64,000 nt of DNA, taken from contig JAFWQJ010000039.1 of the NCBI GenBank assembly GCA_017545185.1, positions 58,205 to 122,204 on the forward strand. Direction: 5' to 3'. This stretch comes from Oscillospiraceae bacterium (GTDB taxonomy: Bacteria > Bacillota > Clostridia > Oscillospirales > Ruminococcaceae). Shown in pieces: positions 7,619 through 64,000 of this stretch; position 1 is the first letter of the stretch, and each line of letters opens with the position of its first letter. The notes beneath the pieces were generated by a model. The model was given only the letters and a program-made list of their open reading frames with translations. It searched no databases and was not told the DNA's origin. A program made the translations under genes and the position numbers.

Positions 7619-8680
7619 TTATTTATAAAACGAACCGGCGATCATGACGCGGACGATCTCGCGGTTTTCGTCGAGCAGCACCAAATCAGCGTCCGCGCCG
7701 ACCTCAATGCGTCCCTTTTTCGGCTCGCCGATCATGTCGGCCGGGGTGCGGGTCGCCATTCTGACGGCGTCCTCAAACGGAACGCCGAAGCTTGCCGCCT
7801 GCTTCACGCACCGCCAGAGCGTTGAGGTAGAGCCTGCGATCGCGCCGTCCATTGTCCGTGCGACGCCGTTTTTGACCTCGATATCCTGTCCGCCGAACTC
7901 GTAGATGCCGTCGCCCAGACCCGTTGCGCGCATTGCATCGCTGATGATGACCATGCGCTCCGGCCCGAACATTTTATACAGCATCATGACGATCGCCGGA
8001 TGCAGATGCAGGCCGTCGGTGATCGCCTGCACGTAGATGTTTTTCGCAAGCGCTGCGGGGATCGGCCCCGGCTCGCGGTGGTGGATGCCCGGCATCGCGT
8101 TGAAGGTATGCGTCAGGCAGTTTGCGCCCGCCTCGATCGCCTTGATGCAAGTGTCATAATCCGCATCGGTATGGCCGATGCAGACCAGCGCGCCGCATTC
8201 TTTGATGAACTCCATGGAGCCTTCCAGCTCCGGCGCGATCGTGACCACGCGCATACCGTCCAGCGACTTAAATTCAGCAAGATCGGGATTTTTGATGTAC
8301 TTGCCGTTCTGCGCACCCTTCTTCTTCGCGTTGATGTACGGGCCTTCCATGTGGAAGCCGAGGATCTGTGCGCCCTTGACATTGCGGTCGCCCTCGGTGA
8401 CCTTTTTGATCGCCTCGTAGCTCTGCGTCATGGTCGTCGGGAGCCATGCGGTCGTGCCGTTTTCCGCAAGAAATGCGCTCATTTCGGTAAATTCACCGTC
8501 CATGGTGTCCTTGCCGACGCAGCCGTGCGTGTGCATATCGACCAAACCGGGAATGACCGAAAGACCGGTGCAGTCCTCACCGGCAGTGTCCGCCGATGCC
8601 GGCGCGATCGCGGTGATGCTGCCGTTTTCGATCGTGATGTCGGTCAGTTTGCCCTCAAAGAGCAGGTTTTTTAAGATCAT
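7619..8680 (-). CDS. nagA: N-acetylglucosamine-6-phosphate deacetylase
   Basis: NagA removes acetate from GlcNAc-6-phosphate, feeding amino sugars to glycolysis or cell-wall synthesis. The start at 8680 follows GAAAGG and gives 353 residues, near the family norm; a longer frame to 8761 reads repeat-derived sequence. The amidohydrolase motifs are present: VIPGLVDMHTHGCVGKDTMDG, GFHMEGPYINAKKKGAQN, VCIGHTDADYDTC, LTHTFNAMPGIHHREPG, and the catalytic Asp in MVIISDAMRATGLGDG. It lies next to a ROK-family sugar kinase, which could supply its substrate; no nagB is seen nearby. Confidence 0.96.
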   Translation of the reverse strand: MILKNLLFEGKLTDITIENGSITAIAPASADTAGEDCTGLSVIPGLVDMHTHGCVGKDTMDGEFTEMSAFLAENGTTAWLPTTMTQSYEAIKKVTEGDRNVKGAQILGFHMEGPYINAKKKGAQNGKYIKNPDLAEFKSLDGMRVVTIAPELEGSMEFIKECGALVCIGHTDADYDTCIKAIEAGANCLTHTFNAMPGIHHREPGPIPAALAKNIYVQAITDGLHLHPAIVMMLYKMFGPERMVIISDAMRATGLGDGIYEFGGQDIEVKNGVARTMDGAIAGSTSTLWRCVKQAASFGVPFEDAVRMATRTPADMIGEPKKGRIEVGADADLVLLDENREIVRVMIAGSFYK

Positions 8681-8800
8681 ATCTATCGCCTTTCTGAAAG
8701 CGGTTCGATATCCCCATAGCCGGAGATTCCGTGTGCCGCTTTTATATTTTGCCGGAAACATACAGGAAGCCCCTTCTTATCTGTCCGGCACATCGTATTC

Positions 8801-8900
8801 TATATCAAAACGGGATTCCAAAGGGCTGCGGCTTTCAGACGTATGTCCCTTTGGCGGGTTTGGGCGGAGCCCATTATCAATCATCGCGGAGCGATACCGC
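8801..8900. repeat. R1 repeat copy directly behind the ROK kinase
   Basis: On the minus strand it starts at the base after the ROK stop with GCGGTATCGCTCCGCGATGA, followed by AATGGGCTCCGCCCAAACCCGCC, a long CCAAAGGG...CCCTTTGG stem and AATCCCGTTTTGATATA. No gene is seen from 8681 to 8900. Confidence 0.8.
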
Positions 8901-10241
8901 TTATTTCGCTGCCGGGAGCGATGCTGCCGCGACCGCCTGACCAACGCGTCTGTCCATTTCGTCCGGGAGAATGAACTCGATCTTTTTGAACAGCTCCGGG
9001 AATTCCTGTTCGAGGACTTCCTTTGCCTTTTCGATGATGAGATCACCGCCCAAGCCAGAGGTCACGCGGCCGGAGATCTGCAGATAGCGGATGTCGTAGA
9101 AGTCCGCGTAATTTGCGATCGCATAGCCGAAATAGGTACCGATCGTGCGGAAGATATCCTTCGCGCCCTCGTGACCCGTTTCGAGGATCTTCTGGACGGC
9201 CTTCAGCTTTTCCGCGAGCGTCAGGCTCTCGTCCAGCTCGATACCGGCCTTCGGTGCGAGACGGATGACCGCATCCTGCGAGAAATACTTGACGCCGCAG
9301 CCGTAATCGCCCGACCACTCATCGACCGGCGAATCCGGATTGTAGTCCACCGGCACGAAGGCAAGCTCATTGTGCCAGCCGGTGACATGTCCCTCGGTGT
9401 CGATATAGCCGCCCGCTTCGGACGTACCCATTGCGATGCCGAGCACGCCGTTGACGTCCATTGCCATGGAAGCCGCCAGTGCCGCGACGTCGCCGTCATT
9501 TGCGACCGCATACGGCACGCCGAGCTCTTCGAGCACATCGACATACACATTCTTGCAGGCTTCGCCCTGCGTATCCTTCGGCACCTTGAGGAACAGGTGC
9601 GAGACCATTGCACGGTTCGCGACCAGAACGCCCGCGGTGCTGACGCCGACTGCATCAAAGCCCGGCATGTGCTCCGCCGCTTTCAGGATCGCGGCCTTGA
9701 TATGCTCATGGTGATAGGCGATATCCTCTGCGAGCTTCGGCAGCCAGACGATCTCCTCTGCCCAGACGGTCTCGCCGTTGACGACCGCAGCGACCTTCAT
9801 ATCCGACCCGCCTGCGTCAAAGCCGACGCGGCAGCCGTTCAGGTTTCTGCCGATCGGCAGCGGACGCACCTTGTTCTCCGGCATATCGGCAAAATCGCGC
9901 TCCTCGACCTCGAAATCACGCTCGTAGGTCGTGCTCCAGAAATCGACATCGAATGCGCGCAGGCCGTCCTTCGTGTAGGCGTCGCGGATGTACTCGAACA
10001 CCTCATGGTCGCCGGCAAGCATGACCTTCCAGCCGCCTGCACACCAGAGGATCGTTTTGATGAGGCGCTCCGCATAGCGGCAGTTCTCCTCTTTGCTGTC
10101 GCCGAGCATGGTGTCGCGGCGGTAAACAAGCCCGTCCTCACGCTCCACGGCGATCGAAAACGGTCTGGTCGCTTTCGCAAGAAAATCGCGGTTGAAATAC
10201 ACCGCAGGAACAAAATCACGGTCGAGAATCGGCTGGATCAT
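8901..10241 (-). CDS. ROK family sugar kinase, large form
   Basis: A sugar kinase of the ROK/ASKHA fold, 446 residues, about 130 longer than a standard ROK protein. The ROK part begins near residue 137: the phosphate loop GFDAGGSDMK, GVSTAGVLVANRA, the catalytic Asp in AVANDGDVAALAASMA, and GIAMGTSEAGGYI. The usual zinc motif CxCGxxGCxE is not present; only one Cys is seen in the corresponding GDYGCGVKYFSQD stretch. The N-terminal 130 residues form an extra domain that I do not recognise. The start at 10241 follows AGAAAGGA. Position beside nagA suggests a GlcNAc- or ManNAc-type substrate, but glucose is not excluded. Confidence 0.75.
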   Translation of the reverse strand: MIQPILDRDFVPAVYFNRDFLAKATRPFSIAVEREDGLVYRRDTMLGDSKEENCRYAERLIKTILWCAGGWKVMLAGDHEVFEYIRDAYTKDGLRAFDVDFWSTTYERDFEVEERDFADMPENKVRPLPIGRNLNGCRVGFDAGGSDMKVAAVVNGETVWAEEIVWLPKLAEDIAYHHEHIKAAILKAAEHMPGFDAVGVSTAGVLVANRAMVSHLFLKVPKDTQGEACKNVYVDVLEELGVPYAVANDGDVAALAASMAMDVNGVLGIAMGTSEAGGYIDTEGHVTGWHNELAFVPVDYNPDSPVDEWSGDYGCGVKYFSQDAVIRLAPKAGIELDESLTLAEKLKAVQKILETGHEGAKDIFRTIGTYFGYAIANYADFYDIRYLQISGRVTSGLGGDLIIEKAKEVLEQEFPELFKKIEFILPDEMDRRVGQAVAAASLPAAK

Positions 10242-10292
10242 ATTCGGTTTCCTTTCTGGTTTTGATTTTTTGGTTTGCGCTTTTACACAATA

Positions 10293-10325
10293 AAGCAAGC
10301 GGCAGCACGAAACCGCCGCTTGCTT
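10293..10325 (-). terminator. Terminator behind the SDR gene
   Basis: AAGCAAGCGGC pairs with GCCGCTTGCTT around an 11-base loop, 14 bases past the SDR stop and followed by TTTATTGTG on the minus strand. It separates the SDR gene from the ROK kinase, which therefore has its own transcript or relies on readthrough. Confidence 0.7.
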
Positions 10326-10339
10326 GATCTGCGGTTTGG

Positions 10340-11287
10340 TTACTTCGTGTTCTTGATATTCCACCGGAACGGGCAGATGCGCGAAGCCTTGGTGGTATCA
10401 AACATGAAGTTCTTGTCAATGGTCAGGACATCGAGGAAGCGGTAATTCGTTTTCTGTTCCGGATCACCGAACACCTTTGCCTTCAGGCTGACGGCGAAGC
10501 TGCTTTTCTGGAGCACCGGCCCCAGACGGTGATTCTCCTTCATGAACGTGATGATCTCGGAGGCCATGACAAGGGAGCTGTCCGCGACATTGTAGATGCC
10601 CGTATAGCTCGGGCTGTCCGCCTGCCGAAGGAATCCGATGATGAAATCGGAGATGTTGTGGATGCAGCACATGTGGTAGCCGTATTCGCCGGTGCGGAAC
10701 ACGAATACCGAATGATCCTTCGGATCGGTGATGCGCGACATCAGGTTGTCGGTGAAATTCAGCGAATACACCATGGGCGTGCGGATGACGCAGCAGACCA
10801 TGGTTTTTGTGCCGCGGACGTCATTTGCAAAGGCGACCTCTGCATTGGCCTTCATTTTGCCGTAATTGGAGGCCGGCTTGACGGGTTCGTCCTCACGCAC
10901 GGGCTCGCGGTTTTCGGGCTGCTTGTAGACCTGCGTGGTGCTGAGCAGAATGAACTTCTTGATATTCTTTGCGACTGCCATTTTGTAGATGAACTTATCG
11001 TAGGCAGCGCTTTCCTCGACCTGCGGCTTCTCAATGATCGGACCGAGATCGTTGTCAACCGTACAGGCGAGATGCACGACGTAGTCGATCTGGAACTCGT
11101 CGAAGATATCCCCGTAAGCATTCTGGTCATGCGCGCCGGCTTCACGGTAGATGAAGTTTTCTTTTCCGGTGTTGTAATCGCTCTGCTTGGTATCAACCGC
11201 GATAACGGTATTGCCTTTTTTCAGCAGGCCGGAACAGATATGATCTCCGAGCAGGCCGCAGCCGCCGGTAACGAGAATGGTTGCCAT
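10340..11287 (-). CDS. NAD-dependent epimerase/dehydratase (extended SDR)
   Basis: A short-chain dehydrogenase/reductase of the extended, sugar-nucleotide type, 315 residues. The Rossmann motif is TILVTGGCGLLGDHI, followed by VVHLACTVDN, LLSTTQVY and the catalytic pair in SNYGKMKAN (YxxxK). The start at 11287 is preceded by AGAAAGGA; upstream in-frame codons lack a site. The exact substrate (UDP-sugar epimerisation, dehydration or reduction) cannot be told from sequence. It is transcribed alone, from a promoter near 11400 to a terminator at 10293-10325. Confidence 0.85.
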   Translation of the reverse strand: MATILVTGGCGLLGDHICSGLLKKGNTVIAVDTKQSDYNTGKENFIYREAGAHDQNAYGDIFDEFQIDYVVHLACTVDNDLGPIIEKPQVEESAAYDKFIYKMAVAKNIKKFILLSTTQVYKQPENREPVREDEPVKPASNYGKMKANAEVAFANDVRGTKTMVCCVIRTPMVYSLNFTDNLMSRITDPKDHSVFVFRTGEYGYHMCCIHNISDFIIGFLRQADSPSYTGIYNVADSSLVMASEIITFMKENHRLGPVLQKSSFAVSLKAKVFGDPEQKTNYRFLDVLTIDKNFMFDTTKASRICPFRWNIKNTK

Positions 11288-11372
11288 AACAATCAGTCCT
11301 TTCTGTAATGGGATGCCCATGCCCCGAGGCATGAAATTGATACATTGATTCCGGACACATTGATTCACTATT

Positions 11373-11401
11373 ATTATATCACACAAAGGGTAGAAATGCA
11401 A
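11373..11401 (-). promoter_or_regulatory. Promoter for the SDR gene
   Basis: TTGCAT (11401-11396), 17 bases, TATAAT (11378-11373) on the minus strand. It gives a leader of about 80 bases. Confidence 0.6.
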
Positions 11402-11502
11402 GCGTGTTCCTAAAATTTGACAGAATGGATATTCCGGCGCAAATTTTACAGGTTTGCTTCGTGATTATGCACAAAACAACCTTGCGTATTTAATACTGTT
11501 TT

Positions 11503-11967
11503 TTACAATTTGCCGCGTAAACCGGCAAAAAACGCCTGCAGAACAGCCGCGCAGGGCTCCTCCAGCAGCCCCGCCGTGACGCGCGGCTTATGGTTGTACG
11601 GCAGCGAGAACATCTGCTGCACGGAAACGACCGCACCGGCCTTTTCGTCGTAGGCGCCGAAGATCACGCGGTCGATGCGCGCATTGATGATCGCGCCGCT
11701 GCACATCGGGCAGGGCTCCAGCGTGACATAGAGATTGCAGCCGGAAAGCCGCCATGATCCGCGCTTTTTCGCGGCCTCCTCGATCGCGAGGATCTCGGCG
11801 TGGGCGGTCGGGGAATGATCCTGTTCGCGGCGGTTGCGTCCCCGGCCGAGAATTTCGCCGGTCTCCCTGTCCACGACCACGGCGCCGACCGGGATCTCCC
11901 CTGCCGCGGCGGCCTCCTCCGCAAGCGCGATCGCCGCCCGCATATAAGCAAAATCGTCTGAAAACAT
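11503..11967 (-). CDS. tadA: tRNA-specific adenosine deaminase
   Basis: TadA converts A34 to inosine in the tRNA-Arg(ACG) anticodon. The 154-residue protein carries the zinc deaminase signature: HAEILAIEEAAKKRG with the proton-shuttle Glu, and TLEPCPMCSGAIINARI with the two zinc Cys. The ending GLLEEPCAAVLQAFFAGLR matches the C-terminal helix of bacterial TadA. It lies 26 bases after the membrane protein gene on the same strand and is probably cotranscribed with it. Only a weak GGTGAT site is seen before the ATG. Confidence 0.95.
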   Translation of the reverse strand: MFSDDFAYMRAAIALAEEAAAAGEIPVGAVVVDRETGEILGRGRNRREQDHSPTAHAEILAIEEAAKKRGSWRLSGCNLYVTLEPCPMCSGAIINARIDRVIFGAYDEKAGAVVSVQQMFSLPYNHKPRVTAGLLEEPCAAVLQAFFAGLRGKL

Positions 11968-11993
11968 CGTATCACCGTTTCAGGACGCAGCGT

Positions 11994-13100
11994 TCACTGC
12001 AGCAGGTTCAGCAGCATCAGCAGCAGCGAGGCCGCCAGCCACGGCAGCATCGGAACGGACTGCGTCAGGTAGTAAAGCTTCTTTTTCATCGGCAGGAAGG
12101 TCGTCCGGTTTTCGAGCATCAGCTTTGTCCGGCGGAAGTGCACGAAGAACAGAATCAGCACCGTACCGATGCCGAGCAGGATGATGATATACTGCCAGAG
12201 CCGGATCTCCTCCGAGGCGTATACCAGACCGAGCCGCGCGTATTTCAGCGCGGAATACACGATCCGCAGGGCGGCGCACTTGATGATCGAGCCGGAACGG
12301 ACCAGCAGGTAACCGGCGGACAGTCCGATCAGCAGCTCGCAGATGCGCTCCGGAAACTCGTTCGGACAGAGGAAGCCGATCAGCGCCGTGACGAGCACCG
12401 CAAACGGATCCCCGAACTGCCGGAGCAGCGGGAGCAGCGCGCCGCGGAAGAACAGCTCCGCGAGCACCGAGACCGCCAGCGTATCGAACACGCCGTAGGT
12501 GCCGATCGCGGCGACATCCTTGTAGGCGAACAGCCGCTGCGAGGTCTGCACGCTGGTGCCGATCGCAGCCGTGGAATAAACGGCGGCGATGATCATGCCG
12601 GCACCGACTGCGGCGATCATTTCCGGGATCGCGCCGAGCGCGGCGGGTGCGAATACGGGCTGCGGGAGCCTGCACATCTTCGTCAGGATGAGCGTCGGCA
12701 GGCCGTATTTGAGGACAAGGCAGAGAATGCGCACGCCGGTGACCGCCCACTGACTGCCGCCCATTTTGAAATCGAGAAAGTTGATGCTGATCGGGATGTG
12801 CAGCATTTTCATTGCGGCGATCAGCAGCGAGCTGCCGAGCACCTCCGAGAGCAGGAAGATCAGCAGCGCCGCACCGAGCATCGTGCTGCAGTGCATGAGT
12901 GCCTGCCGTTCCGCGAGCGCCGCGTCCATGCTGACGGGCGGTGCGCCCTCGACATACACATGCTCGCGGCTGTTGTCGCTGAACCGGAATACAAACGGTT
13001 CTCTGGTATGGCGGCGCCAGTGCCGGTAATCCTGATTATACTGTTCATTTTCCGAATCGTATTCAAAATCCTCCACGACGTCAATACGCTCGTTTCCCAT
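11994..13100 (-). CDS. Polytopic membrane protein, degenerate CPBP-like
   Basis: A 368-residue membrane protein with about 70 cytoplasmic N-terminal residues and roughly eight hydrophobic segments. The stretch AVSVLAELFFRGALLPLLRQFGDPFAVLVTALIGFLCPNEFPERICELLIGLSAGYLL has the shape of a CPBP (CaaX protease/bacteriocin-processing) domain. The EExxxR motif has only one Glu, and the later His positions are not seen (FLCPNEFPER stands in the second motif), so protease activity is unlikely. AAAAAGGAGG precedes the ATG. Function unknown; it shares a transcript with tadA. Confidence 0.65.
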   Translation of the reverse strand: MGNERIDVVEDFEYDSENEQYNQDYRHWRRHTREPFVFRFSDNSREHVYVEGAPPVSMDAALAERQALMHCSTMLGAALLIFLLSEVLGSSLLIAAMKMLHIPISINFLDFKMGGSQWAVTGVRILCLVLKYGLPTLILTKMCRLPQPVFAPAALGAIPEMIAAVGAGMIIAAVYSTAAIGTSVQTSQRLFAYKDVAAIGTYGVFDTLAVSVLAELFFRGALLPLLRQFGDPFAVLVTALIGFLCPNEFPERICELLIGLSAGYLLVRSGSIIKCAALRIVYSALKYARLGLVYASEEIRLWQYIIILLGIGTVLILFFVHFRRTKLMLENRTTFLPMKKKLYYLTQSVPMLPWLAASLLLMLLNLLQ

Positions 13101-27426: not shown

Positions 27427-28494
27427 TCAGCCCTGTGCATACCGTCTCCGGAATGCGGCTTCGTCCGCGGTAAAGAGCCGGTCGGCGGTCTCATCCGCGA
27501 TCGCGATCAGCATCTGCTCATACGTACACTGCAGCGGCGAAACGGTATTTTCATTGCCGGTTTCCAGCCGGTTCAGGCAGCCGCAGGAATTGGTACAGCG
27601 CTTCCGCAGCGCGCATTCCCGGCAGGTCTCCGGCACGGCCTCACGCTTTGCAAGCTCCCGCTGCCGCTCTTTGGAGATGCCGCCGAACACATCCCCGAGG
27701 CAGAAATCCGCATCCCCGATGAACTGTGTGCAGGCGTAGATCCTGCCGTCCGGTGCGACCGGCATCTGCCGGAAGCCGAGATGACATCGCTCGCCCGGAT
27801 TGAACCCCGTGATGCAGTCGCGGATCTTCGCATCGAACGGGCTGAAATAAAACGGTCTGCCATGCAGGAATCTTTCCGCATAATATGCAGCAATCTCCCG
27901 CAGCTGCGCCTCCAGCAGTTCAAGGTCGCTGTCCGTCCAGTGTACCTTTTTTCCGTAGGCGATCGTTCCGGTGATGCGCCGGAATCCGAGGTCATACAGA
28001 TATCGCACCGCTTCCGCATACTGCGGCACGGCCTGCGGCGCAACGGTCATCATCGCATGGGCATCCGGCTGATAGTCAAGCAGCAGCTTTGCCTTTTCCG
28101 ATACCACGGAAAAGCTGCCGCTGCCGTCCCGGAATGTCCGGCAGCAGTCCTGCGCCGTGCCCTCAAACGACAGCCCGATACCGATGTCCTCGCGCTTTGC
28201 CAGCGAAAGGAAATCCGCATCCAGCAGCGTGCCGTTCGTCGTCATTTTATAGGAAACCGGCTTGCCGGTCTCCGCGCTGATCTGTTTGCAGCGTGCGACC
28301 GCACGTTCGATCAGCGGACGTTCCAGCAGCGGCTCTCCGCCGAAGAAGCAGAGCCCCGCCGTTTTCCCCTGCGAAAACGCCAGATCACAGGCCGCGTCCA
28401 GCACAGCCTCCGTCATCCGGACAGGCTGCTTGACGCGCGTGCAGTAGGCGCAGTCCATGTTGCAGGCTTCCGTTAAATGCAGCGTCAGATTCAT
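27427..28494 (-). CDS. Radical SAM/SPASM enzyme
   Basis: A radical S-adenosylmethionine enzyme of 355 residues. The radical cluster motif is CNMDCAYC (Cys11, Cys15, Cys18), followed by GLCFFGGEPLLERP. The C-terminal SPASM region carries two likely auxiliary iron-sulfur clusters: Cys residues in FNPGERCHLGFRQMPVAPDGRIYACTQF in outline, ADFCLGDVFGG, and ETCRECALRKRCTNSCGCLNR. Such enzymes modify peptides or proteins (sulfatase maturation, thioether or carbon crosslinks). The start overlaps the stop of a lipoprotein gene in ATGA, so the lipoproteins are the obvious candidate partners. No sulfatase is nearby. Confidence 0.9.
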   Translation of the reverse strand: MNLTLHLTEACNMDCAYCTRVKQPVRMTEAVLDAACDLAFSQGKTAGLCFFGGEPLLERPLIERAVARCKQISAETGKPVSYKMTTNGTLLDADFLSLAKREDIGIGLSFEGTAQDCCRTFRDGSGSFSVVSEKAKLLLDYQPDAHAMMTVAPQAVPQYAEAVRYLYDLGFRRITGTIAYGKKVHWTDSDLELLEAQLREIAAYYAERFLHGRPFYFSPFDAKIRDCITGFNPGERCHLGFRQMPVAPDGRIYACTQFIGDADFCLGDVFGGISKERQRELAKREAVPETCRECALRKRCTNSCGCLNRLETGNENTVSPLQCTYEQMLIAIADETADRLFTADEAAFRRRYAQG

Positions 28495-29276
28495 AAGCCG
28501 AGATCCTCAAACACCTTCGCGGGATCGGGGTTCCCGCTGATATCCACAAAGGCTGCGCGTTCTGCCCCGTTATCATCGTCCTGTATGATGCAGCCCCAGT
28601 CAAAGAACGCCGTGCCCAGACCGTCCGCCCATTCCCGCATCGTAAGCCCTGTGCTGTCGGCCGCGCTGCCGTCATAGAGCAGGAAGGCTGTCCCCTGTGC
28701 TTCCAGGATCAGCGTGTACTGAAAGCCTTTCCCGAACCACTTTGTATTCTCCTCGCTGAGATCGGCCGTCCAGCCGCGGTTGCGGCAGGCTTTTTTCCAG
28801 CGCGAGACGATCTGTTTCTGTTCCGTATCATCCATGCCTGCTGCCGGCTGAAAATCCGGGATGCCCTGCTCCGGATCCGGCTCCGAATTCATCTGAATCA
28901 TACCCGCAAGCTGCGGCTTTGCGGGTGTCGTGCATGTATGCACAGGCTCCGTACACACATCCCCGCCGTCATAGACATCCACATCGCCGTCCAGTACAAC
29001 AACGCCGCCTTCCAGCATGACAGGCTCGTCGCTCACGGCAGTCGTCACGGTCTCGGTCACTGTCTGTTCGGAAACTGCGGTCTGTGCGGGCTCCGTCAGT
29101 GCCTCCGGTATCATCTCCGCTTCGCCCATGAGCTGCACTTCCGGATAAGAGTCTGCCGGTGCCGTACCCTCTGTTGTGAGCACATCGTCATAGCCGCATC
29201 CTGTCAGCATAACGGCCGCAGCGAGTACGGCGGCATATTTCGGGATCTTTGCGGTGTTTCTCGGTTCAATTTTCAT
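28491..29276 (-). CDS. Lipoprotein B, partner of the rSAM gene
   Basis: A 261-residue lipoprotein of unknown function. The lipobox is LTGCGY after MKIEPRNTAKIPKYAAVLAAAVM. A low-complexity segment (about 35-110) rich in Thr, Val and Glu holds the acidic repeat VVVLDGDVDVYDGGDV, followed by CTEPVHTCTT with two Cys. The C-terminal part (about 140-261) is globular and shares FDWG(C/Y)I with lipoprotein A. GGAGGTG seven bases upstream fixes the start at 29276, inside the end of the lipoprotein A gene. Its stop overlaps the rSAM start. Confidence 0.85.
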   Translation of the reverse strand: MKIEPRNTAKIPKYAAVLAAAVMLTGCGYDDVLTTEGTAPADSYPEVQLMGEAEMIPEALTEPAQTAVSEQTVTETVTTAVSDEPVMLEGGVVVLDGDVDVYDGGDVCTEPVHTCTTPAKPQLAGMIQMNSEPDPEQGIPDFQPAAGMDDTEQKQIVSRWKKACRNRGWTADLSEENTKWFGKGFQYTLILEAQGTAFLLYDGSAADSTGLTMREWADGLGTAFFDWGCIIQDDDNGAERAAFVDISGNPDPAKVFEDLGL

Positions 29277-29868
29277 CTGAATACACCTCCGTTTCGGATG
29301 CTGCTTCCCCGAGCAGATCGGCAATGACCCGTTCGGCATCTTCCTCTGTAACGGAATAATCCTCCGGTGCCGCTGCGATCAGTGCCGTCCGGTATTCCGC
29401 CTGTTCCTCCGCCCCGTGCGGATATTGCGTATTGCAGATATAGCCCCAGTCAAACGCTTCCGCGCCGTTATCCTGATACCGTTCCTCTGCGCCGCTGTAT
29501 TTATCATAGAATGCGACGATGATCTTTTTCTCCGTGTCGATATACCACGTTTCCTGATAATTCCCTGCAAGATCGGCAGCGGCGTCGGTGCGTTCCAGCG
29601 TGATGCCGTGTCCGTCAAAGACTTTCCTGAGTACCTGCTCGGAATCTGCTGCCGCGACCGCGGAGAGCGCGACGTCGCCGTCCAGCTGCACATCGTCATC
29701 CGGGCAGACCTGCATATCACCGTCGATCTGCACCTGCGAATCTATGGGCTGCGTTTCTCCTGCAAGCGCGACCTCTCCGGAATATCCGCAGCCGGTCAGC
29801 AAAACAGCTGCTGCCATGAGAGCTGCATATTTCGGCACTGCTGCCGTTTTTCTCGGTTGAATTTTCAT
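29266..29868 (-). CDS. Lipoprotein A, paralogue of lipoprotein B
   Basis: A 200-residue lipoprotein, first gene of the three-gene rSAM operon. Its N-terminus (MKIQPRKTAAVPKYAALMAAAVLLTGCGY) is nearly that of lipoprotein B, so the two arose by duplication. An acidic repeat stretch (VQIDGDMQVCPDDDVQLDGDV) with one Cys follows the lipobox, then a globular domain with AEAFDWGYICNTQYPHG. GGAGGCG precedes the ATG. It overlaps lipoprotein B by 11 bases. Function unknown; either lipoprotein may be substrate or partner of the enzyme. Confidence 0.85.
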   Translation of the reverse strand: MKIQPRKTAAVPKYAALMAAAVLLTGCGYSGEVALAGETQPIDSQVQIDGDMQVCPDDDVQLDGDVALSAVAAADSEQVLRKVFDGHGITLERTDAAADLAGNYQETWYIDTEKKIIVAFYDKYSGAEERYQDNGAEAFDWGYICNTQYPHGAEEQAEYRTALIAAAPEDYSVTEEDAERVIADLLGEAASETEVYSDEN

Positions 29869-58109: not shown

Positions 58110-58143
58110 AACAGGCAGACAGCCGGAGCCGTCTGCCTGTTTG
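58110..58143 (-). terminator. Terminator behind peptide gene 1
   Basis: AAACAGGCAGAC and GTCTGCCTGTTT pair around ten bases, about 25 bases beyond the stop of the peptide gene, with a T run on the minus strand. Confidence 0.85.
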
Positions 58144-58168
58144 TCATTCGTTCAGATCAAGTCGGAGC

Positions 58169-58261
58169 TCAGTCGTCCTCCTCGGTCTCGTAGCTGCTTC
58201 TGGTGATGACGTCCTCTGCATCAAATGCAACGACGGTCAGTTCCGGAGTCTGGTACTTCAT
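58169..58261 (-). CDS. 30-residue peptide, copy 1
   Basis: A small gene preceded by AAGAGGTG seven bases upstream, 43 bases after the large secreted protein gene and before a terminator. The peptide opens MKYQTPELTVVAFDAEDVI and ends in TRSSYETEEDD. It has no signal peptide or Cys. The coding sequence and 19 bases past it (58150-58261) are identical to 61791-61902. The opening resembles many short Ruminococcus/Lachnospiraceae peptides of the form MKYxxPExxVxxFxxEDVI, whose role I do not know. A peptide precursor, a small regulator or an unlinked secreted-protein partner are all possible. Confidence 0.75.
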   Translation of the reverse strand: MKYQTPELTVVAFDAEDVITRSSYETEEDD

Positions 58262-58304
58262 GTGTTTTCACCTCTTTTCAGTGATTTGATTCTTTACGCT
58301 TTGA

Positions 58305-61300
58305 TCAATCAAACGGGATTTCTTCGGACGGTTCTTCTGCAGCCGGCGCTTCCTGTGCCGGTTCTGCCGGTTCAGCGGACTCCTCATCCGGATCCACTGC
58401 ATCCAGACCGAAGTATTCTCTTGCAGCATGGCAGTACATCATCAGAGCGGTCAGCGTGCTCTTGAGCGTCTCGTTGCTGCTCTTTTCCAGTCTGCTTGCG
58501 ATGTAGCACTCAGGGCTGTAGATCGTGGTCAGGCTGATCTGCTCATAAGCAGAGCCGTTCTTCACGCAGACATAAGCCTCGTAAGCATCGGTCATGTCCG
58601 GAGCCTTGATGCCGACGATATCAGCGATCAGACGGATCGAGCCGTCCTCTCTCTTGTTTCTGACGATCTTCGCATACTTGAAGCTGTCCTCAGAGCCTGC
58701 AACGCGGTATGCCAGATATGCATCCGGCAGCACGGACTCGTCTTCCAGCGTCACGATGTAACGGAGCGTCGTTGCAGCATCCAGAATGAGGGAGTGCGAG
58801 GCGACTGCTGCAGTTGCATTCTCAATGCTGTCCTCGATGACCTGCTCAGCAGCGTCGGTGTTCACATAGCTTCTGTCAATCGTAACCGGGCCGTAAAGGC
58901 TCTCGACGTTTGCATCCGCAAGATTGTCGGTGTTTACATCGAAGTAACGCTGTGCGTAAGAACCGTAGGTCGCCATGTAAGCTGCCAGCGTTCTCATCTT
59001 CTCGTCCGTGGACTTCTGCATTCTGCCGTCCAGATATGCCTGAACAGAATAGGTGAACGGATCCTCAGCATCGGTAGAAACCTCAGCGCCGTTCAGCGTT
59101 GCAGCGTAGGTGCAGTAGATCGTGTCAGCCATTTCCGGAGCAGCGACCATGTAGGTGAATCTGTAGCGGCCGTCCCACTCACCGTCATCGTTCAGGTTGT
59201 GCTTGCCGGTGATCTCGGTCTTGACCCACTCGCCGTTCTCCTGGGTATGCCATGCGGTCATGACCGGGTTCTCAACGCCCTCTGCGAACTGCACAAGATA
59301 GTTGACACCGATCTTGCCGTTGACGAGCAGCGTGTGGTTCTGCTTGATGATAAAGGTCGGAGCGATCGCAACGTCCTTGGTCGCGGTGTACTCAACGTCC
59401 TCGAAGGTCGCGGTCGCGGTGTAGGTCATGGTGCCTGCGGTCGCAAGACCCGGCTCCTGCGAAACAACGCCTTCGCCGACGACTGCGTTCACGGTCTTCT
59501 CGTCACCGCACTTGCTGCAGGTGAACTTTGCGCTTGCGGAAGAAGCATCTGCTGCCCATTCCCATGCCGGTTCGCCGTAGCTGTGACCCTTTGCCGGGAT
59601 CTCAAATTCTTTGACATCCTCATAGGTCTCGCCGTTGAAGGTAACGGTTGCAGTATAAAGCTCGGCGCCTGCACCGGTGCAGGTTGCTTCGCTCGTCACA
59701 ACCGGCTCGCCGATCTCAGCCTCAAGCGTGAAGGTGCTGTCGTTCTGCTGGCAGGTAAAGACCGCCTCTGCATAAGAAGCATCGTTTGCCCAGTTCCACT
59801 CCGGCTCACCGTAGGTGTGCTCCGCTGCCGGAAGCACCTCTTCCTTCTCGTTGGTGTAGGTCACACCGTTGTAAACGGCAGTCGCTTTATAGGTGCGGAT
59901 GCCGGTCTCGGTGCAGGTCGGTTCGGCCGTGATCTCGCTTGTGATCTCAACATCGGTGACTGTGACGTTCTCGGAGCAGTTCTCGCGTGCGCAGGAAAGC
60001 GTCAGCACTGCGCTGCTGTAGCCGTCCCATGCCCATGCCGGGACCGTGAACTGATGACCGAGTTCCGGGCTGATATCATTGACCGTCTTTTCTTCCTTCA
60101 GGCCGTTGCAGGTCGCGGTGTAAACTTCATATTCTGCTTTGGTGCAGGTCGCATCAAAATGCTCACAGCTGACGACCGCATCCGTGCGTCTCTCAGCATC
60201 GCATCTGCTGCAGACTTCAACAAGCTTTGCGGAGGACAAATCTTCCGCCCACTCGAAACCAGCTGCCTCAAACACATGGCCGAGTGCATCAACAGATTCC
60301 GTCAGCTTCTCGTCGTTGGTGTAGGTGACGTTCGGATCAACATCCGTGTTCGTCCACTTTGCGATGATGAGCTTTGTACCCTCGTCCGTGCAGGTCGGGG
60401 CCGGATCGACAGAATACTCATAGAAGCACGGCAGGCCATACTGCCAGGCCCAGTTGTCCGGATCTTTCTCGGGATGTCTGCCTGTTGCATCATCTTTCAG
60501 TTTCTTGACATCGACGGTGCAGGTCTTGGCTTCCGTATCCCAGTGCCATGCGCCGGGTCTCCACTGATGCAGATCGGCGATCGCTGCAGCATAATCCAGA
60601 TAACGCTGCTTCAGACGCTGACGGATCTCCTCGATGTGCGGGCTGGTATTGTCTGCCAGCATCTCATCCAGGATATTGTCGATGTTGCCGATTCTGCTGC
60701 CCTGCTGGCTCTTGACATTCTCAACCAGATTGTAGAGATACTCACCGGTCAGGTTCAGATCCTCGATCTGATTGCAGCCTGCGATGGCCTTCTTGATGTG
60801 GTCGATCGAAACATGTTTGCCCCACTCTCTCATGCCGGCGTTGTCACCGGTCAGCATGGAAAGGTCGATCACCTTGATGGAGGAGCAGCCGTTAAACATG
60901 TTCTCGATGTAGTCAACGGTCGTGACGTTCGTGAGGCCGGAAAGATCAACGGTCTCCAGCTTGGTCAGACCTGCAAAGGTCCAGCCGAAGTCATACACAT
61001 TGGAAGCATCGACGCTTTCCTGCACAACCAGAGACTCCAGATTGGTGAAGTTCTGGAACAGGTGATACCAGGACTTCGGAAGGGTCGCGCCGTCAGCGAT
61101 CACGATATGCTTCACCTTGCTGTAGCTGATCGTGGAGAAGAAAGAGGTGTGAAGATCTCCGGTGATCTGATCCGGATGGTCTTTACCGACTGCGCCCTCT
61201 GCGTTGGTAATGCCCTTCTTGATCGTCAGGGTGCCGGTCGCGGCATCCCATGTGATACCGCTGTGATTCCATGCATTGCTGCTGTTAATCGTTGCAGCCT

Positions 61301-61424
61301 CTGCCTCGATCACAGCAGGTGCGGATGCAAATCTGAACTGTGCCGGAGCAATCAGATTGCCCGTGACAGTCAGAACTGCCAGAATGCCGGCCGCAGACCG
61401 GCGGATAGAATGCTTTTTGCTCAT
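58305..61424 (-). CDS. Large secreted protein with LRR-like, Cys-pair and shared C-terminal modules
   Basis: A 1,039-residue secreted protein. A signal peptide (about 1-45) precedes a BspA/DUF285-type leucine-rich part (about 60-230; FTNLESLVVQESVDASNVYDFGWTFAGLTKLETVDLSGL in outline). Between about 340 and 620 come repeats of roughly 70 residues with pattern GH.YGEPxWEWAxDASxAxAxFTCxxC. The C-terminal module (about 625-1005; FIIKQNHTLLVNGKIGVNYLVQFAEG, then YMATYGSYAQRYFDVNTDNLA) is nearly identical to that of the gene upstream. A Glu/Pro/Ala tail ends the chain. AGGAGG fixes the start. No dockerin or anchor is seen. It is followed by the 30-residue peptide gene. Confidence 0.85.
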   Translation of the reverse strand: MSKKHSIRRSAAGILAVLTVTGNLIAPAQFRFASAPAVIEAEAATINSSNAWNHSGITWDAATGTLTIKKGITNAEGAVGKDHPDQITGDLHTSFFSTISYSKVKHIVIADGATLPKSWYHLFQNFTNLESLVVQESVDASNVYDFGWTFAGLTKLETVDLSGLTNVTTVDYIENMFNGCSSIKVIDLSMLTGDNAGMREWGKHVSIDHIKKAIAGCNQIEDLNLTGEYLYNLVENVKSQQGSRIGNIDNILDEMLADNTSPHIEEIRQRLKQRYLDYAAAIADLHQWRPGAWHWDTEAKTCTVDVKKLKDDATGRHPEKDPDNWAWQYGLPCFYEYSVDPAPTCTDEGTKLIIAKWTNTDVDPNVTYTNDEKLTESVDALGHVFEAAGFEWAEDLSSAKLVEVCSRCDAERRTDAVVSCEHFDATCTKAEYEVYTATCNGLKEEKTVNDISPELGHQFTVPAWAWDGYSSAVLTLSCARENCSENVTVTDVEITSEITAEPTCTETGIRTYKATAVYNGVTYTNEKEEVLPAAEHTYGEPEWNWANDASYAEAVFTCQQNDSTFTLEAEIGEPVVTSEATCTGAGAELYTATVTFNGETYEDVKEFEIPAKGHSYGEPAWEWAADASSASAKFTCSKCGDEKTVNAVVGEGVVSQEPGLATAGTMTYTATATFEDVEYTATKDVAIAPTFIIKQNHTLLVNGKIGVNYLVQFAEGVENPVMTAWHTQENGEWVKTEITGKHNLNDDGEWDGRYRFTYMVAAPEMADTIYCTYAATLNGAEVSTDAEDPFTYSVQAYLDGRMQKSTDEKMRTLAAYMATYGSYAQRYFDVNTDNLADANVESLYGPVTIDRSYVNTDAAEQVIEDSIENATAAVASHSLILDAATTLRYIVTLEDESVLPDAYLAYRVAGSEDSFKYAKIVRNKREDGSIRLIADIVGIKAPDMTDAYEAYVCVKNGSAYEQISLTTIYSPECYIASRLEKSSNETLKSTLTALMMYCHAAREYFGLDAVDPDEESAEPAEPAQEAPAAEEPSEEIPFD

Positions 61425-61534
61425 TAATTCAACCTCCTGAAAAAAGTATGCCTGATTACTTTTACACGCTGCAGAATGTTCCCACATAACCGCAGATCCC
61501 ACATTTTCCGCAGTCAATCATTCACAGCCTGTTC

Positions 61535-61563
61535 ATTATACCATGAAATTCCAGCAGTGTCAA
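61535..61563 (-). promoter_or_regulatory. Consensus promoter of the LRR-type cassette
   Basis: TTGACA (61563-61558), 17 bases, TATAAT (61540-61535) on the minus strand, a perfect match; the leader is about 100 bases. The rest of 61425-61750 is AT-rich without a visible gene. Confidence 0.82.
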
Positions 61564-61750
61564 TCATTTCACATAAACTATTTAGGGGTTTTCAAATTTC
61601 TGTGTTTTCGTCAAATTAGTTTAATCGAAGCTTGCAGATTTAGCTATATGCAATAAAACAAATTCTGTGAAAATGCTCGCTGTCCATACAATAATCAGTT
61701 CAATCTTTTCCGGGAAGCGTGTCCGTCCGGGCTGATTTCCTTTTAACAAA

Positions 61751-61786
61751 AAAGCAGACAGACAGCCGTAGCTGCCTGCCTGCTTT
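61751..61786 (-). terminator. Terminator behind peptide gene 2
   Basis: On the minus strand AAGCAGGCAGGCAG pairs with CTGTCTGTCTGCTT (G-U pairs) around CTACGG and runs into TTTTTTG. It has a different sequence from the terminator of copy 1. Confidence 0.85.
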
Positions 61787-61809
61787 CATTGTTCAGATCA
61801 AGTCGGAGC

Positions 61810-61902
61810 TCAGTCGTCCTCCTCGGTCTCGTAGCTGCTTCTGGTGATGACGTCCTCTGCATCAAATGCAACGACGGTCAGTTCCGGAGTCTGGTACTTC
61901 AT
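61810..61902 (-). CDS. 30-residue peptide, copy 2
   Basis: Identical to copy 1 in all 93 bases and in 19 further bases past the stop, while the ribosome-binding region (AAGAGGCG here) and terminators differ. It lies 49 bases after the disrupted large gene. Identity of a short gene amid diverged flanks points to recent duplication, gene conversion or strong selection. Confidence 0.75.
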   Translation of the reverse strand: MKYQTPELTVVAFDAEDVITRSSYETEEDD

Positions 61903-61951
61903 ATTTCTCGCCTCTTTTCTCAAAGTGAAATTCAGATATACCTTTCAGCCA

Positions 61952-63869
61952 TTATTCTGCATCCAGATCAAAGTAATCTCTTGCAGCATGGCAGTACATC
62001 ATCAGTGCGACCAGCGTGCTCTTGAGCGTCTCGTTACTGCTCTTTGCCAGTCTGCTTGCAATGTAGCACTCGGGGCTGTAGATCGTGGTCAGGCTGATCT
62101 GCTCGTAGGAAGAACCGTTCTTCACACAGATATATGCCTCGTAAGCATCGGTCATGTCCGGTGCCTTGATGCCGACGATGTCAGCGACCAGGCGGATCGA
62201 GCCGTCCTCTCTCTTGTTTCTGACGATCTTCGCATACTTGAAGCTGTCCTCAGAGCCTGCAACGCGGTATGCCAGATATGCATTCGGGAGCACGGACTCG
62301 TCTTCCAGCGTCACGATGTAACGAAGCGTCGTTGCAGCATCCAGAATGAGGGAGTGCGAGGTGACCTCGGCGGTCGCATTTTCAATGCTGTCCTCGATGA
62401 CCTGCTCAGCAGCGTCGGTGTTCACATAGCTTCTGTCAATCGTAACCGGGCCGTAAAGGCTCTCGACATTTGCATCTGCAAGATTGTCGGTGTTCACATC
62501 GAAGTAACGCTGTGCGTAAGAACCGTAGGTCGCCATGTAAGCTGCCAGCGTTCTCATCTTCTCGTCCTTGGACTTCTGCATTCTGCCGTCCAGATACGCC
62601 TGAACAGAGTAGGTAAACGGATCCTCCGCATCGGTCGAAACCTCAGCGCCGTTCAGCGTCGCTGCATAAGTGCAGTAGATCGTGTCTGCCATTTCCGGAG
62701 CCGCGACCATGTAGGTGAATTTGTAGCGGCCGTCCCACTCACCGTCATCGTTCAGGTTGTGCTTGCCGGTGATCTCAGTCTTGACCCACTCGCCGTTCTT
62801 CTGGGTATGCCATGCGGTCATGACCGGATTCTCAACGCCCTCTGCGAACTGCACGAGATAGTTGACGCCGATCTTGCCGTTGACGAGCAGCGTGTGGTTC
62901 TGCTTGATGATAAAGGTCGGAGCGATCGCAACGTCCTTGGTCGCGGTGTACTCAACATCGTTGAAGGTCGCGGTCGCGGTGTAGGTCATGGTGCCTGCGG
63001 TCGCAAGACCCGGCTCCTGCGAAACAACGCCTTCGCCGACGACTGCGTTCACAGTCTTCTCGTCACCGCACTTGCTGCAGGTGAACTTTGCGCTTGCGGA
63101 AGAAGCATCTGCTGCCCATTCCCATGCCGGTTCGCCGTAAACGTGATCTGTCGTCTCGACGGAAACAACACCTGTTACGATTTCATAATTGTTGGTATCA
63201 TCCGGCGTGAACTGATAATTCACGGTGCCTTCCTCGGATATTTCCTCCGAAGTCACTGCCAGCGTACCGGCAACGGATTCGTCGGTGCGGGACAGAACGA
63301 GATCCGCGAATGTCTGGTTGCATGCAAGCGTTGCCGCCGAAACCGTGCCCAGATTCGGAATTGCCTGTGCGATCGCAACCGTTGCAGAACCGGTCACTGC
63401 GTTGAAGTTGTCCTTCGTCACCTTGTAGTACACAGTGTAGCTGCCTGCATTGGTGCAGGTCGGATTTGCTTCGCTGTACTCGCCGTCTTCGGACTCTGCA
63501 TACATAACCGTCGCGCCTGCCGGTGCACTCACGCTGATTCCGTGTGCTGCGCCGTCATAGGTGCCGGTGTAGCCCTCTGCCTCGACGTCTTCCATGCTTG
63601 CTGCTGCGATCGTGAAATCGATCGTTGCATTCGCCGGCAGCTTGTAGTTCGGATTGGAAAGCGCATCTGCCGTTGCGACATACTCGCCAGCTGCGGTCTG
63701 TCCGCCCGTGACGTTCACATCACAGCTGTCGCCCTCGACCAGATTGCTAACGGTCGCCTTCGGTGCCTGCTCTTCGCCGGTGTAGGTCAGATCGGTATCC
63801 GTCCATTCGAGCACCGCCTCAAGCTGGGCGATCTCAACCGTTGCAGAACCGGTCACTGCGTTGAAGTTG
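61952..63869 (-). pseudogene. Large secreted protein with MBG-like repeats, 5' end disrupted
   Basis: About 639 codons of the 3' part of a gene related to its neighbour. Visible are MBG/YDG-like beta repeats (TYTGEEQAPKATVSNLVEGD; GYTGTYDGAAHGISVSAPAG), then one GHVYGEPAWEWAADASSA-type unit and the C-terminal module that is nearly identical to that of the LRR-type protein, ending FDLDAE. The frame breaks at 63869: NFNAVTGSATV, elsewhere preceded by TKD, is here preceded by foreign sequence with an in-frame stop at 63901-63899. No signal peptide or start with a binding site remains in the window, so the 5' part was separated by insertion or lost. Confidence 0.78.
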
Positions 63870-63957: not shown

Positions 63958-64000
63958 ATGAAGTCACTCAAGAACGCAAATCTGACCGAATACTCAAAAA
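63958..64000 (+). CDS. Start of an unidentified gene, cut by window edge
   Basis: An ATG at 63958 with AAAGGA six bases upstream opens a frame of 14 codons to the window end, MKSLKNANLTEYSK. The short stretch recalls the N-termini of DUF559 endonuclease-like proteins that occur next to such REP elements, but this is too little for a firm call; a transposase is the main alternative. Confidence 0.35.
   Translation, partial: MKSLKNANLTEYSK

Follow-up and report, generated by a model that had tools for sequence, protein, structure and literature searches.

Short leader-bearing peptides encoded behind secreted proteins of Clostridia suggest a RiPP-type route to separately exported peptide partners

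Introduction

The enzymology of ribosomally synthesized and post-translationally modified peptides (RiPPs) is mostly regarded as a source of free natural products. Here we describe a family of short, leader-bearing peptide genes in Clostridia, two identical members of which lie in a 64,000-nt stretch of an Oscillospiraceae genome (contig JAFWQJ010000039.1 of assembly GCA_017545185.1; hereafter the window), each behind the gene for a large protein. Among described systems, lasso peptides and the small protein QhpC come closest. Lasso precursors carry a YxxPxL motif and usually a Thr at position -2, occur together with PqqD, kinase and nucleotidyltransferase (NTase) genes, and in lasso biosynthesis a kinase of the HprK type phosphorylates Ser3 of BsfA (PMC10368454). 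The PqqD-type protein PadeB1 binds its leader with nanomolar affinity (PMC5067487). QhpC is a leader-bearing small protein whose modification and cleavage precede its transfer through an ABC transporter, after which it forms part of a periplasmic complex (PMC7876137).

The locus studied here resembles these systems in its leader and in the kind of machinery encoded beside its relatives, and differs from them in that its precursors are scattered behind many differently built secreted proteins. The peptide looks like the substrate of a shared machine for modification and export, which suggests that each of these surface proteins is supplied with a tailor-made peptide that leaves the cell on its own. 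The original prediction, made from the letters of the window, knew of no described system with this layout. Open-access literature searches agree, returning neither a description of the pairing of secreted protein and peptide nor any occurrence of the leader string EDVITTS, although absence there is not proof; what they listed were lasso and general RiPP papers or unrelated work, and the main text of the RRE-Finder paper nowhere mentions HPr or a kinase (PMC7470986). Throughout, G, C and L labels denote genomes, contigs and loci, respectively, with G000 being the genome of the window and C35 its contig, which ends at window position 64000.

Results

A peptide gene family behind secreted proteins

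Two neighbouring minus-strand cassettes had been proposed, each comprising a large secreted protein with a near-identical C-terminal module, a 30-residue peptide gene and a terminator. Indeed, the modules align without gaps over 397 codons, with 381 identical residues and 61 of 1191 nt different, and the peptide genes start 43 and 49 nt behind the stop codons of the proteins, the longest common block being exactly 112 nt as described. Both peptide open reading frames (ORFs) encode MKYQTPELTVVAFDAEDVITRSSYETEEDD and are preceded by a stretch that resembles a ribosome-binding site under loose patterns. Neither the peptide nor the module has a significant match in Pfam or NCBIfam.

Counting cassettes in the same genome, as had been recommended, yielded 13 clear peptide copies (and one unrelated weak match), each behind a large protein. 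All 13 start with ATG, carry a ribosome-binding-site-like stretch and sit 12-49 nt behind a long ORF. By a simple hydrophobicity rule, ten of the 13 partners have a signal-like N-terminus; one (C35b) is truncated at the contig end, and those on C50 and C7 show no visible signal. Leaders are close to M-K-x-Y-x-x-P-E-h-x-I-x-x-F-x-x-E-D-V-I-T-x-S, and across 27 family sequences the Tyr, Phe, Glu and Asp of the leader are invariant while the tails vary. In this genome, tails comprise 7-15 residues counted from the Ser (6-14 after it), and all contain Asp or Glu and none Lys, Arg or Cys. As judged from these sequences, what stays constant in the family is the leader, YxxPE..F..EDVITxS, whereas tails vary and the secreted proteins that usually precede the peptide differ in architecture. 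With a short precursor of this make-up, a conserved leader followed by a variable tail, the family agrees with RiPP systems.

Relatives were searched in samples of the genus (n = 30 genomes; peptide threshold E 0.1), class (n = 391; E 0.001) and phylum (n = 398). The family occurs in 21 genomes of the genus and 42 of the class, with up to 19 copies each, and in three of the phylum sample, namely the genome of the window, G121 (same order) and G789 (outside the class). A scan of contig sets returned 59 loci, mainly from Ruminococcus and Oscillospiraceae of rumen and gut. Some of the others belong to Lachnospiraceae and Clostridia, and the scan also listed Faecalibacterium prausnitzii and a contig that bears the name Alistipes senegalensis (L095), probably by misassignment. 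With a partner defined as an ORF of at least 150 aa ending between -30 and 130 nt upstream of the peptide, 49 of the 59 loci have one; setting aside L108 and L123, where this ORF encodes HprK and a radical SAM protein, leaves 47. Forty of these partners are signal-like, five start at a contig edge, one (L088) enters masked bases and one (L105) is unexplained, whereas three of the ten loci lacking such an ORF (L092, L093, L122) are too close to a contig end to be judged. Close spacing recurs class-wide, with a gap of at most 46 nt at 25 of 29 loci (L160, among the other four, is probably spurious). It is also seen in fetched parts of G245, G046 and G002, in which a partner lies at -8 to 45 nt for 37 of the 41 peptides. 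Peptides of G245 and G046 are longer (~48-68 aa), with the same kind of leader.

The original prediction had cast the C-terminal module and the peptide as one functional unit. A conserved peptide gene family tied to the preceding protein bears out part of this, but the module as its fixed partner is not supported. In the window genome the module occurs in 12 of 13 partners (in 11 at the C-terminus), and in the genus 56 of 66 module proteins have a peptide match within 1500 bp downstream, 50 of them within 250 bp, and 57 of 96 genus peptide matches (down to E 0.1) have the module upstream. However, the Ruminococcus module is present in 0 of 27 partners of G245 and G046, and across all fetched sets it occurs in 66 of 124 upstream proteins (a total that counts the non-partners of L108 and L123). 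On the genus and fetched-set counts the module was rejected as the defining partner. Held against the refuting condition of the original prediction, the peptide is often found without the module, and less often without a secreted-type partner (9 of 56 judgeable contig-set loci).

A gene cluster with a predicted role in modification and export

Loci without a secreted partner revealed a gene cluster beside the peptide. Its recurring order, as recognized by profiles and sometimes incomplete, is HprK-like kinase, PqqD, S26-like peptidase, ABC exporter and PF14907 nucleotidyltransferase, the last often present; sometimes the cluster has a radical SAM gene as well. The HprK-PqqD-S26 row also follows secreted protein and peptide, either directly (L114, L163, L164, L165, L171, L176), after one small secreted-type gene (L083, L095, L175) or after one gene that is S-layer-homology-like by its motif (L169, L170). 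The row continues with ABC and NTase genes in L095, L163, L164, L169, L170 and L171, in the last after an unrelated ORF, and in G789 the complete row stands beside a secreted protein and peptide. The window genome carries HprK-PqqD-S26-ABC on contig C50 (~90975-94092) and a second set, in different order and with a nucleotidyltransferase, on C77. Because these clusters sit on other contigs, the peptides of the window would be served in trans.

PqqD proteins of four relatives (L237, L241, L243, L244) match PF05402 in Pfam with E 3e-11 to 5e-15, and a profile built from these four found those on C50 and C77, so that a PqqD-type RiPP recognition element is encoded together with tailoring genes. 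The S26-like peptidase has Ser21, His61 and Asp76 invariant in 16 of 16 aligned sequences, a pattern that fits a Ser-His S26 enzyme. The HprK-like kinase keeps its P-loop, GxGK(S/T)TH, and an NxDKP motif, and genes for the predicted S26-like peptidase and ABC exporter are in place. The case for assigning this machinery to the peptide family is strong.

Several genes near these clusters were recorded in addition. Small lipoprotein-like or membrane-anchored genes lie between peptide and kinase at L083:4641-5057, L095:8044-8685, L175:18151-18789 and L317:12009-12701; their products end in ELPFVPx or ELPMDRFD, echoing the ELPxI/V ends of several peptide tails. On C77, a longer precursor-like ORF (L236:7303-7698; VPTMDVVRFREDDIIAASAG and on) stands beside the second PqqD-S26-HprK-ABC set, with neighbours that by eye resemble polysaccharide genes. 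In G019, a peptide and secreted protein (L244:8228-8326 and 8344-12780) are convergent to a full HprK-PqqD-S26-ABC-NTase row.

Peptide and kinase co-occur across genomes

An HprK-like match (E 1e-10) was found in 41 of the 42 peptide-positive class genomes, and in 110 class genomes in all. Full-length HprK, i.e. a profile match starting at position 10 or earlier with ~200 bits or more, is present in 40 of these 42 class genomes, compared with 21 of the 349 that are peptide-negative (Fisher 1.2e-36). In the genus, the corresponding numbers are 15 of 21 versus 0 of 9 (P 3.5e-4), or 14 of 20 versus 1 of 10 without the weak G025 peptide (P 0.0026), and the 17 of 30 genomes matched by the S26-like profile all fall within the 21 peptide-positive ones. 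Among kinase loci of peptide-negative genomes, a broader profile detected a diverged peptide on the same stretch in L317 and L326, with E-values that refer to that small set.

Tails covary with the C-terminus of the partner

Within each of four genomes, similarity among tails correlates with that among the last 120 aa of the partners (r = 0.545, n = 12 in G000; 0.79, n = 10 in G002; 0.95, n = 11 in G046; 0.72, n = 16 in G245; permutation P <=0.0008 in all four). Partial correlations given the leader remain at 0.54, 0.76, 0.92 and 0.66, respectively, and correlations with the preceding 200 aa are weaker (0.40, 0.72, 0.56 and 0.23). These tests leave out the duplicate C35b and those peptides, 4 of 41, for which the fetched stretch holds no partner ORF. 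A broader table of tails and partners holds 87 pairs; loci without a long upstream ORF are left out of it, and L108 and L123 are included, although their upstream genes (HprK and radical SAM) are not real partners. Judging by this covariation, the tail appears to be matched to whatever C-terminal domain its partner has.

Radical SAM enzymes and Cys-containing tails

Among 128 distinct peptides, a Cys in the tail was found in 6 of 6 assigned to radical-SAM loci or their strain (L122 is counted here through L123, which belongs to the same strain but lies on a different contig) versus 2 of 122 others, the remaining genomes behind which were not searched for the cluster radical SAM. In F. prausnitzii APC923/51-1 (L122, L123), three Cys-containing peptide versions were seen. 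There, HprK and radical SAM genes share a contig, while a second contig carries those for PqqD, S26, ABC and NTase; these peptides are a candidate for a cross-linked peptide of a human gut commensal. Sactipeptides and ranthipeptides, i.e. a Cys core with a radical SAM maturase, do not describe the family at large, given that Cys tails of this kind concern just 6 of 128 peptides and those of the window genome are Cys-free.

In the window genome the cluster radical SAM has six matches, all of them weak (best E 7e-10), and thus lacks a close homologue. Of its own radical SAM proteins, five were scanned against NCBIfam: only the one on C3 scored above cut-off (SCIFF maturase), and one had no match at E 1e-20. 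As maturases of the genome's own peptides they were set aside, the matches being weak and the peptides free of Cys. Separately, the window encodes a 355-aa radical SAM/SPASM protein (27430-28494, minus strand) for which the PapB ranthipeptide maturase is the nearest model (E 1.1e-57, below cut-off); its neighbour is a putative lipoprotein gene (28491-29339), and no Cys-rich precursor stood out nearby.

A proposed route and its alternatives

From the observed family, pairing, cluster, co-occurrence, covariation and catalytic-type residues we infer a series of biochemical steps that ends in partner binding. The substrate would be the 30-residue peptide, and the machine would be encoded elsewhere (the C50 set and the second set, with the nucleotidyltransferase, on C77). 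The PqqD recognition protein would bind the leader YxxPE..F..EDVITxS; HprK-like kinase and PF14907 nucleotidyltransferase would modify the tail, and perhaps also the near-invariant Ser after VITx, with a radical SAM enzyme acting on Cys-containing tails in a few species; the S26-like Ser-His peptidase would cut off the leader in the cytosol; the ABC exporter would carry the short acidic tail outside; and there the tail would join the C-terminal domain of the Sec-exported protein encoded just before it. Gene content points to leader binding, modification, cleavage and export, while pairing and covariation are what suggest the joining. We regard such a RiPP-type system, in which a short processed peptide is exported separately and then joins its Sec-exported partner, as the probable explanation, with ample room for doubt. 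The export, processing or peptide product guessed at in the original prediction comes near to it.

Several observations weigh against this route. Nine contig-set peptides (L073, L089, L099, L100, L108, L116, L121, L123, L125) have no secreted partner in front, and several of these resemble precursors of ordinary RiPPs. Covariation with the partner is not confined to the tail, since the leader shows it in three of the four genomes (r = 0.57, 0.65 and 0.40; 0.20, P 0.10, in that of the window), and physical linkage alone yields some covariation between a tail and the adjacent C-terminus. Moreover, the C22 partner is of the L075/L078 type, yet its tail resembles that of C50, and five loci of one genome (L068-L072) have nearly one tail behind several partners. 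The co-occurrence statistics treat genomes as independent, uncorrected for phylogeny, and the kinase alone is not specific, with 69 of the 110 HprK-positive class genomes lacking a peptide match. PqqD and S26 are missing from the stretch at 6 of 11 kinase loci from peptide-negative genomes (L318, L319, L322-L325) and beside the kinase in L238, L245 and on C84 of the window genome. Peptides without an HprK match occur in six genus genomes (G007, G017, G018, G021, G028, G029), two of which have an S26 match and four neither (completeness 77-86%), and in the class genome G289, which is 97% complete. Finally, in G789, which lies outside the Cys count given above, a radical SAM gene lies 6 kb from a peptide whose tail has no Cys. 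As a separate observation, L116 (G007:C112:8729-8968) has two tandem peptide genes with no secreted gene upstream on the same strand.

The most serious alternative is an ordinary RiPP, whose tail would act as an independent exported signal or antimicrobial peptide and whose operon with a secreted protein would be merely regulatory. It accounts for L100, L108 and L123 (with L122 of the same strain), in which the same leader occurs without an adjacent secreted partner and Cys tails accompany a radical SAM gene. It fits poorly with as many as 19 precursors per genome scattered behind different secreted proteins, with tails that follow the partner's C-terminal 120 aa more closely than the preceding region, and with the very short tails of the window genome, all of them carrying Asp or Glu and no Lys or Arg; we consider it unlikely. 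The absence of a signal peptide, the frequent pairing and a gap that is most often 14 nt would also suit an unmodified cytosolic helper, i.e. a small chaperone or regulator for the secretion or translation of the preceding protein. Such a role is improbable, as it leaves unexplained the genome-level linkage to the kinase and the PqqD/peptidase/exporter cluster, the division into conserved leader and variable tail, and the radical SAM genes with Cys tails.

A lasso peptide family of unusual genomic spread is a far weaker candidate. In its favour are the YxxPxh motif with a Thr near the leader end, the best NCBIfam match of PqqD, which is a PqqD model for lasso peptides (below cut-off, E 2.7e-7 to 8.4e-10), and an HprK-like kinase, NTase and ABC exporter as described for rumen lasso clusters (PMC7533575, PMC10368454). 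However, the B2 protease PF13471 is above cut-off in 0 of 30 genus genomes, with none in that of the window and one sub-threshold match in G010; no cyclase was noticed in the clusters read, without a genome-wide search, the sole asparagine-synthase-like ORF noticed (L114) being on the other strand; and, where a lasso core has Gly1 and Asp/Glu at 7-9, 0 of 13 tails of the window genome begin with Gly, though some elsewhere do. A lasso family was set aside on the absence of PF13471 and these tail features. Least credible of all are untranslated, decaying relics carried along by duplication of secreted protein genes, for although copies were duplicated and homogenised together with the module, the leader is conserved across distant genomes, all 13 copies keep a ribosome-binding-site-like stretch and peptide presence follows the kinase.

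The two cassettes in the window

Coordinates are collected in Table 1. For protein A, the ORF is listed from TTG 61517 (1070 aa), but the most likely start is ATG 61424, which AGGAGG precedes. "Large secreted protein" holds for A with its signal-like N-terminus, while the start and signal peptide of B are not visible because the contig ends at window position 64000. The labels given to the N-terminal parts, leucine-rich and MBG-like, find only faint echoes in Pfam (DUF285 E 0.077, LRR_5 E 0.15, MBG_2 E 0.0072, all below cut-off). The module of A consists of two similar tandem sub-units, each closing with a helix-like LxxALxxYxxAAxxY stretch.

Table 1 Features of the two cassettes (window positions).
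Feature	Position	Strand	Remarks
Terminator-like hairpin 3' of peptide A	58111..58140 (ends approximate)	-	z -6.6
Peptide gene A	58169..58261	-	30 codons + stop; leader MKYQTPELTVVAFDAEDVITRS 58261-58196; acidic tail SYETEEDD 58195-58172
Partner protein A	58305..61424	-	1039 aa from ATG 61424; signal-like N-terminus MSKKHSIRRSAAGILAVLTV
C-terminal module of protein A (as compared with relatives)	58398..59357	-	
Sigma-70 promoter-like site before cassette A	61535..61563	-	12/12 matches, spacing 17, TG before second hexamer
Terminator-like hairpin 3' of peptide B	61745..61793 (ends approximate)	-	z -7.0
Peptide gene B	61810..61902	-	sequence identical to peptide gene A; leader 61902-61837; tail 61836-61813
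Partner protein B	61952..63869	-	634+ aa; N-terminus cut off by contig end at 64000
C-terminal module of protein B	61958..62917	-	near-identical to that of A

The proposed terminators are strong hairpins, each more stable than all 200 shuffles, though a terminator scan listed neither (6 sites found versus 5.1 expected). Because a perfectly matching sigma-70 site lies between the cassettes, the downstream cassette (A) may have its own promoter; overall, the promoter scan showed no excess (3 sites versus 3.3 expected).

The suggested comparison of synonymous changes gave 38 synonymous and 16 non-synonymous codon differences between the modules and none in the 30 peptide codons, which has P ~0.012 at the module's per-codon rate and 0.049 for synonymous changes only. 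The same tandem occurs in the sister genome G002, where 6 of the 93 nt distinguish one peptide copy from the other; set against these, each copy of the window shows 1 or 3 differing nt in the alignment and, in addition, a short indel. Because the G002 copies do differ, the perfect identity in the window looks like recent local homogenisation. By eye, the last ~130 nt of C35 (63870-64000) resemble an interspersed repeat fused to the repeat region of B, and contig C41 of G002 likewise ends shortly after its second cassette, which suggests an assembly break in repeats.

Discussion

The kind of machinery otherwise associated with RiPPs is here tied to many differently built secreted proteins of rumen and gut Clostridia. 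If the tails are exported and bound, this would be a new way of maturing surface proteins, and would open a way into the many secreted proteins that lack a characterisation and into short ORFs, which are easily passed over in annotation. Concrete predictions follow, too, for those HprK-like kinases and PF14907 nucleotidyltransferases that are not part of lasso clusters. More broadly, we tentatively put forward a two-route assembly of surface proteins in Clostridia, a possibility short of a probable one, in which one shared RiPP-type machine would process and export individually matched tiny subunits, each completing or decorating its own Sec-secreted protein outside the cell. In this way a single genome could provide twelve or more of its surface proteins with modified peptides made to measure.

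Several parts of the system have distant relatives. Large, repeat-bearing and, in A, preceded by a signal-like N-terminus, the partners are reminiscent of BspA/MBG-type surface proteins, from which they differ in sub-cut-off Pfam matches and an unmatched module. In the direction of HPr-rel-A/SynChlorMet-type cassettes (TIGR04352/TIGR04353, TIGR04249), the kinase has weak matches to ScmC (E 3.6e-6) and HprK_rel_A (E 6.2e-4), as has one PqqD protein out of four to PqqD_rel_X (E 0.063), but all these matches lie under the curated cut-offs. The S26-like peptidase likewise has weak, sub-cut-off matches, with E 2.1e-7 for archaeal signal peptidase I and E 1.1e-4 for the Ni-SOD maturation protease. 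The latter and the Sec11-like signal peptidases of archaeal/ER type are of the S26 kind; like them, the peptidase is small with conserved Ser, His and Asp, but no N-terminal membrane anchor is apparent in its alignment.

With lasso clusters (such as Bsf and paeninodin) the family shares a YxxPxh leader with a late Thr, PqqD, an HprK-type kinase, a nucleotidyltransferase and an ABC exporter. Y..[PA] is found in 122 of 128 distinct peptides along with the late Thr, but the Tyr-to-Thr spacing is 17 in MKEIY-type leaders versus 15 in published lasso precursors. Unlike lasso clusters, it has an S26-like peptidase instead of the B2 protease and no cyclase that was noticed, its tails in the window genome have neither Cys nor Gly1, and its many precursors are dispersed, mostly behind a secreted protein. 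A further parallel is QhpC with QhpD/E/F, which likewise combines a small leader-bearing precursor, cytoplasmic processing, ABC export and a complex with translocated subunits, a succession that we propose here from genes. The QhpC system has one dedicated operon, a radical SAM enzyme with a subtilisin-like protease, and thioether and quinone chemistry, whereas in the present case a trans-acting cluster would serve many partners and Cys is absent from most tails. While we claim membership in neither the QhpC nor the lasso family, by analogy the proposed route would work like that of QhpC.

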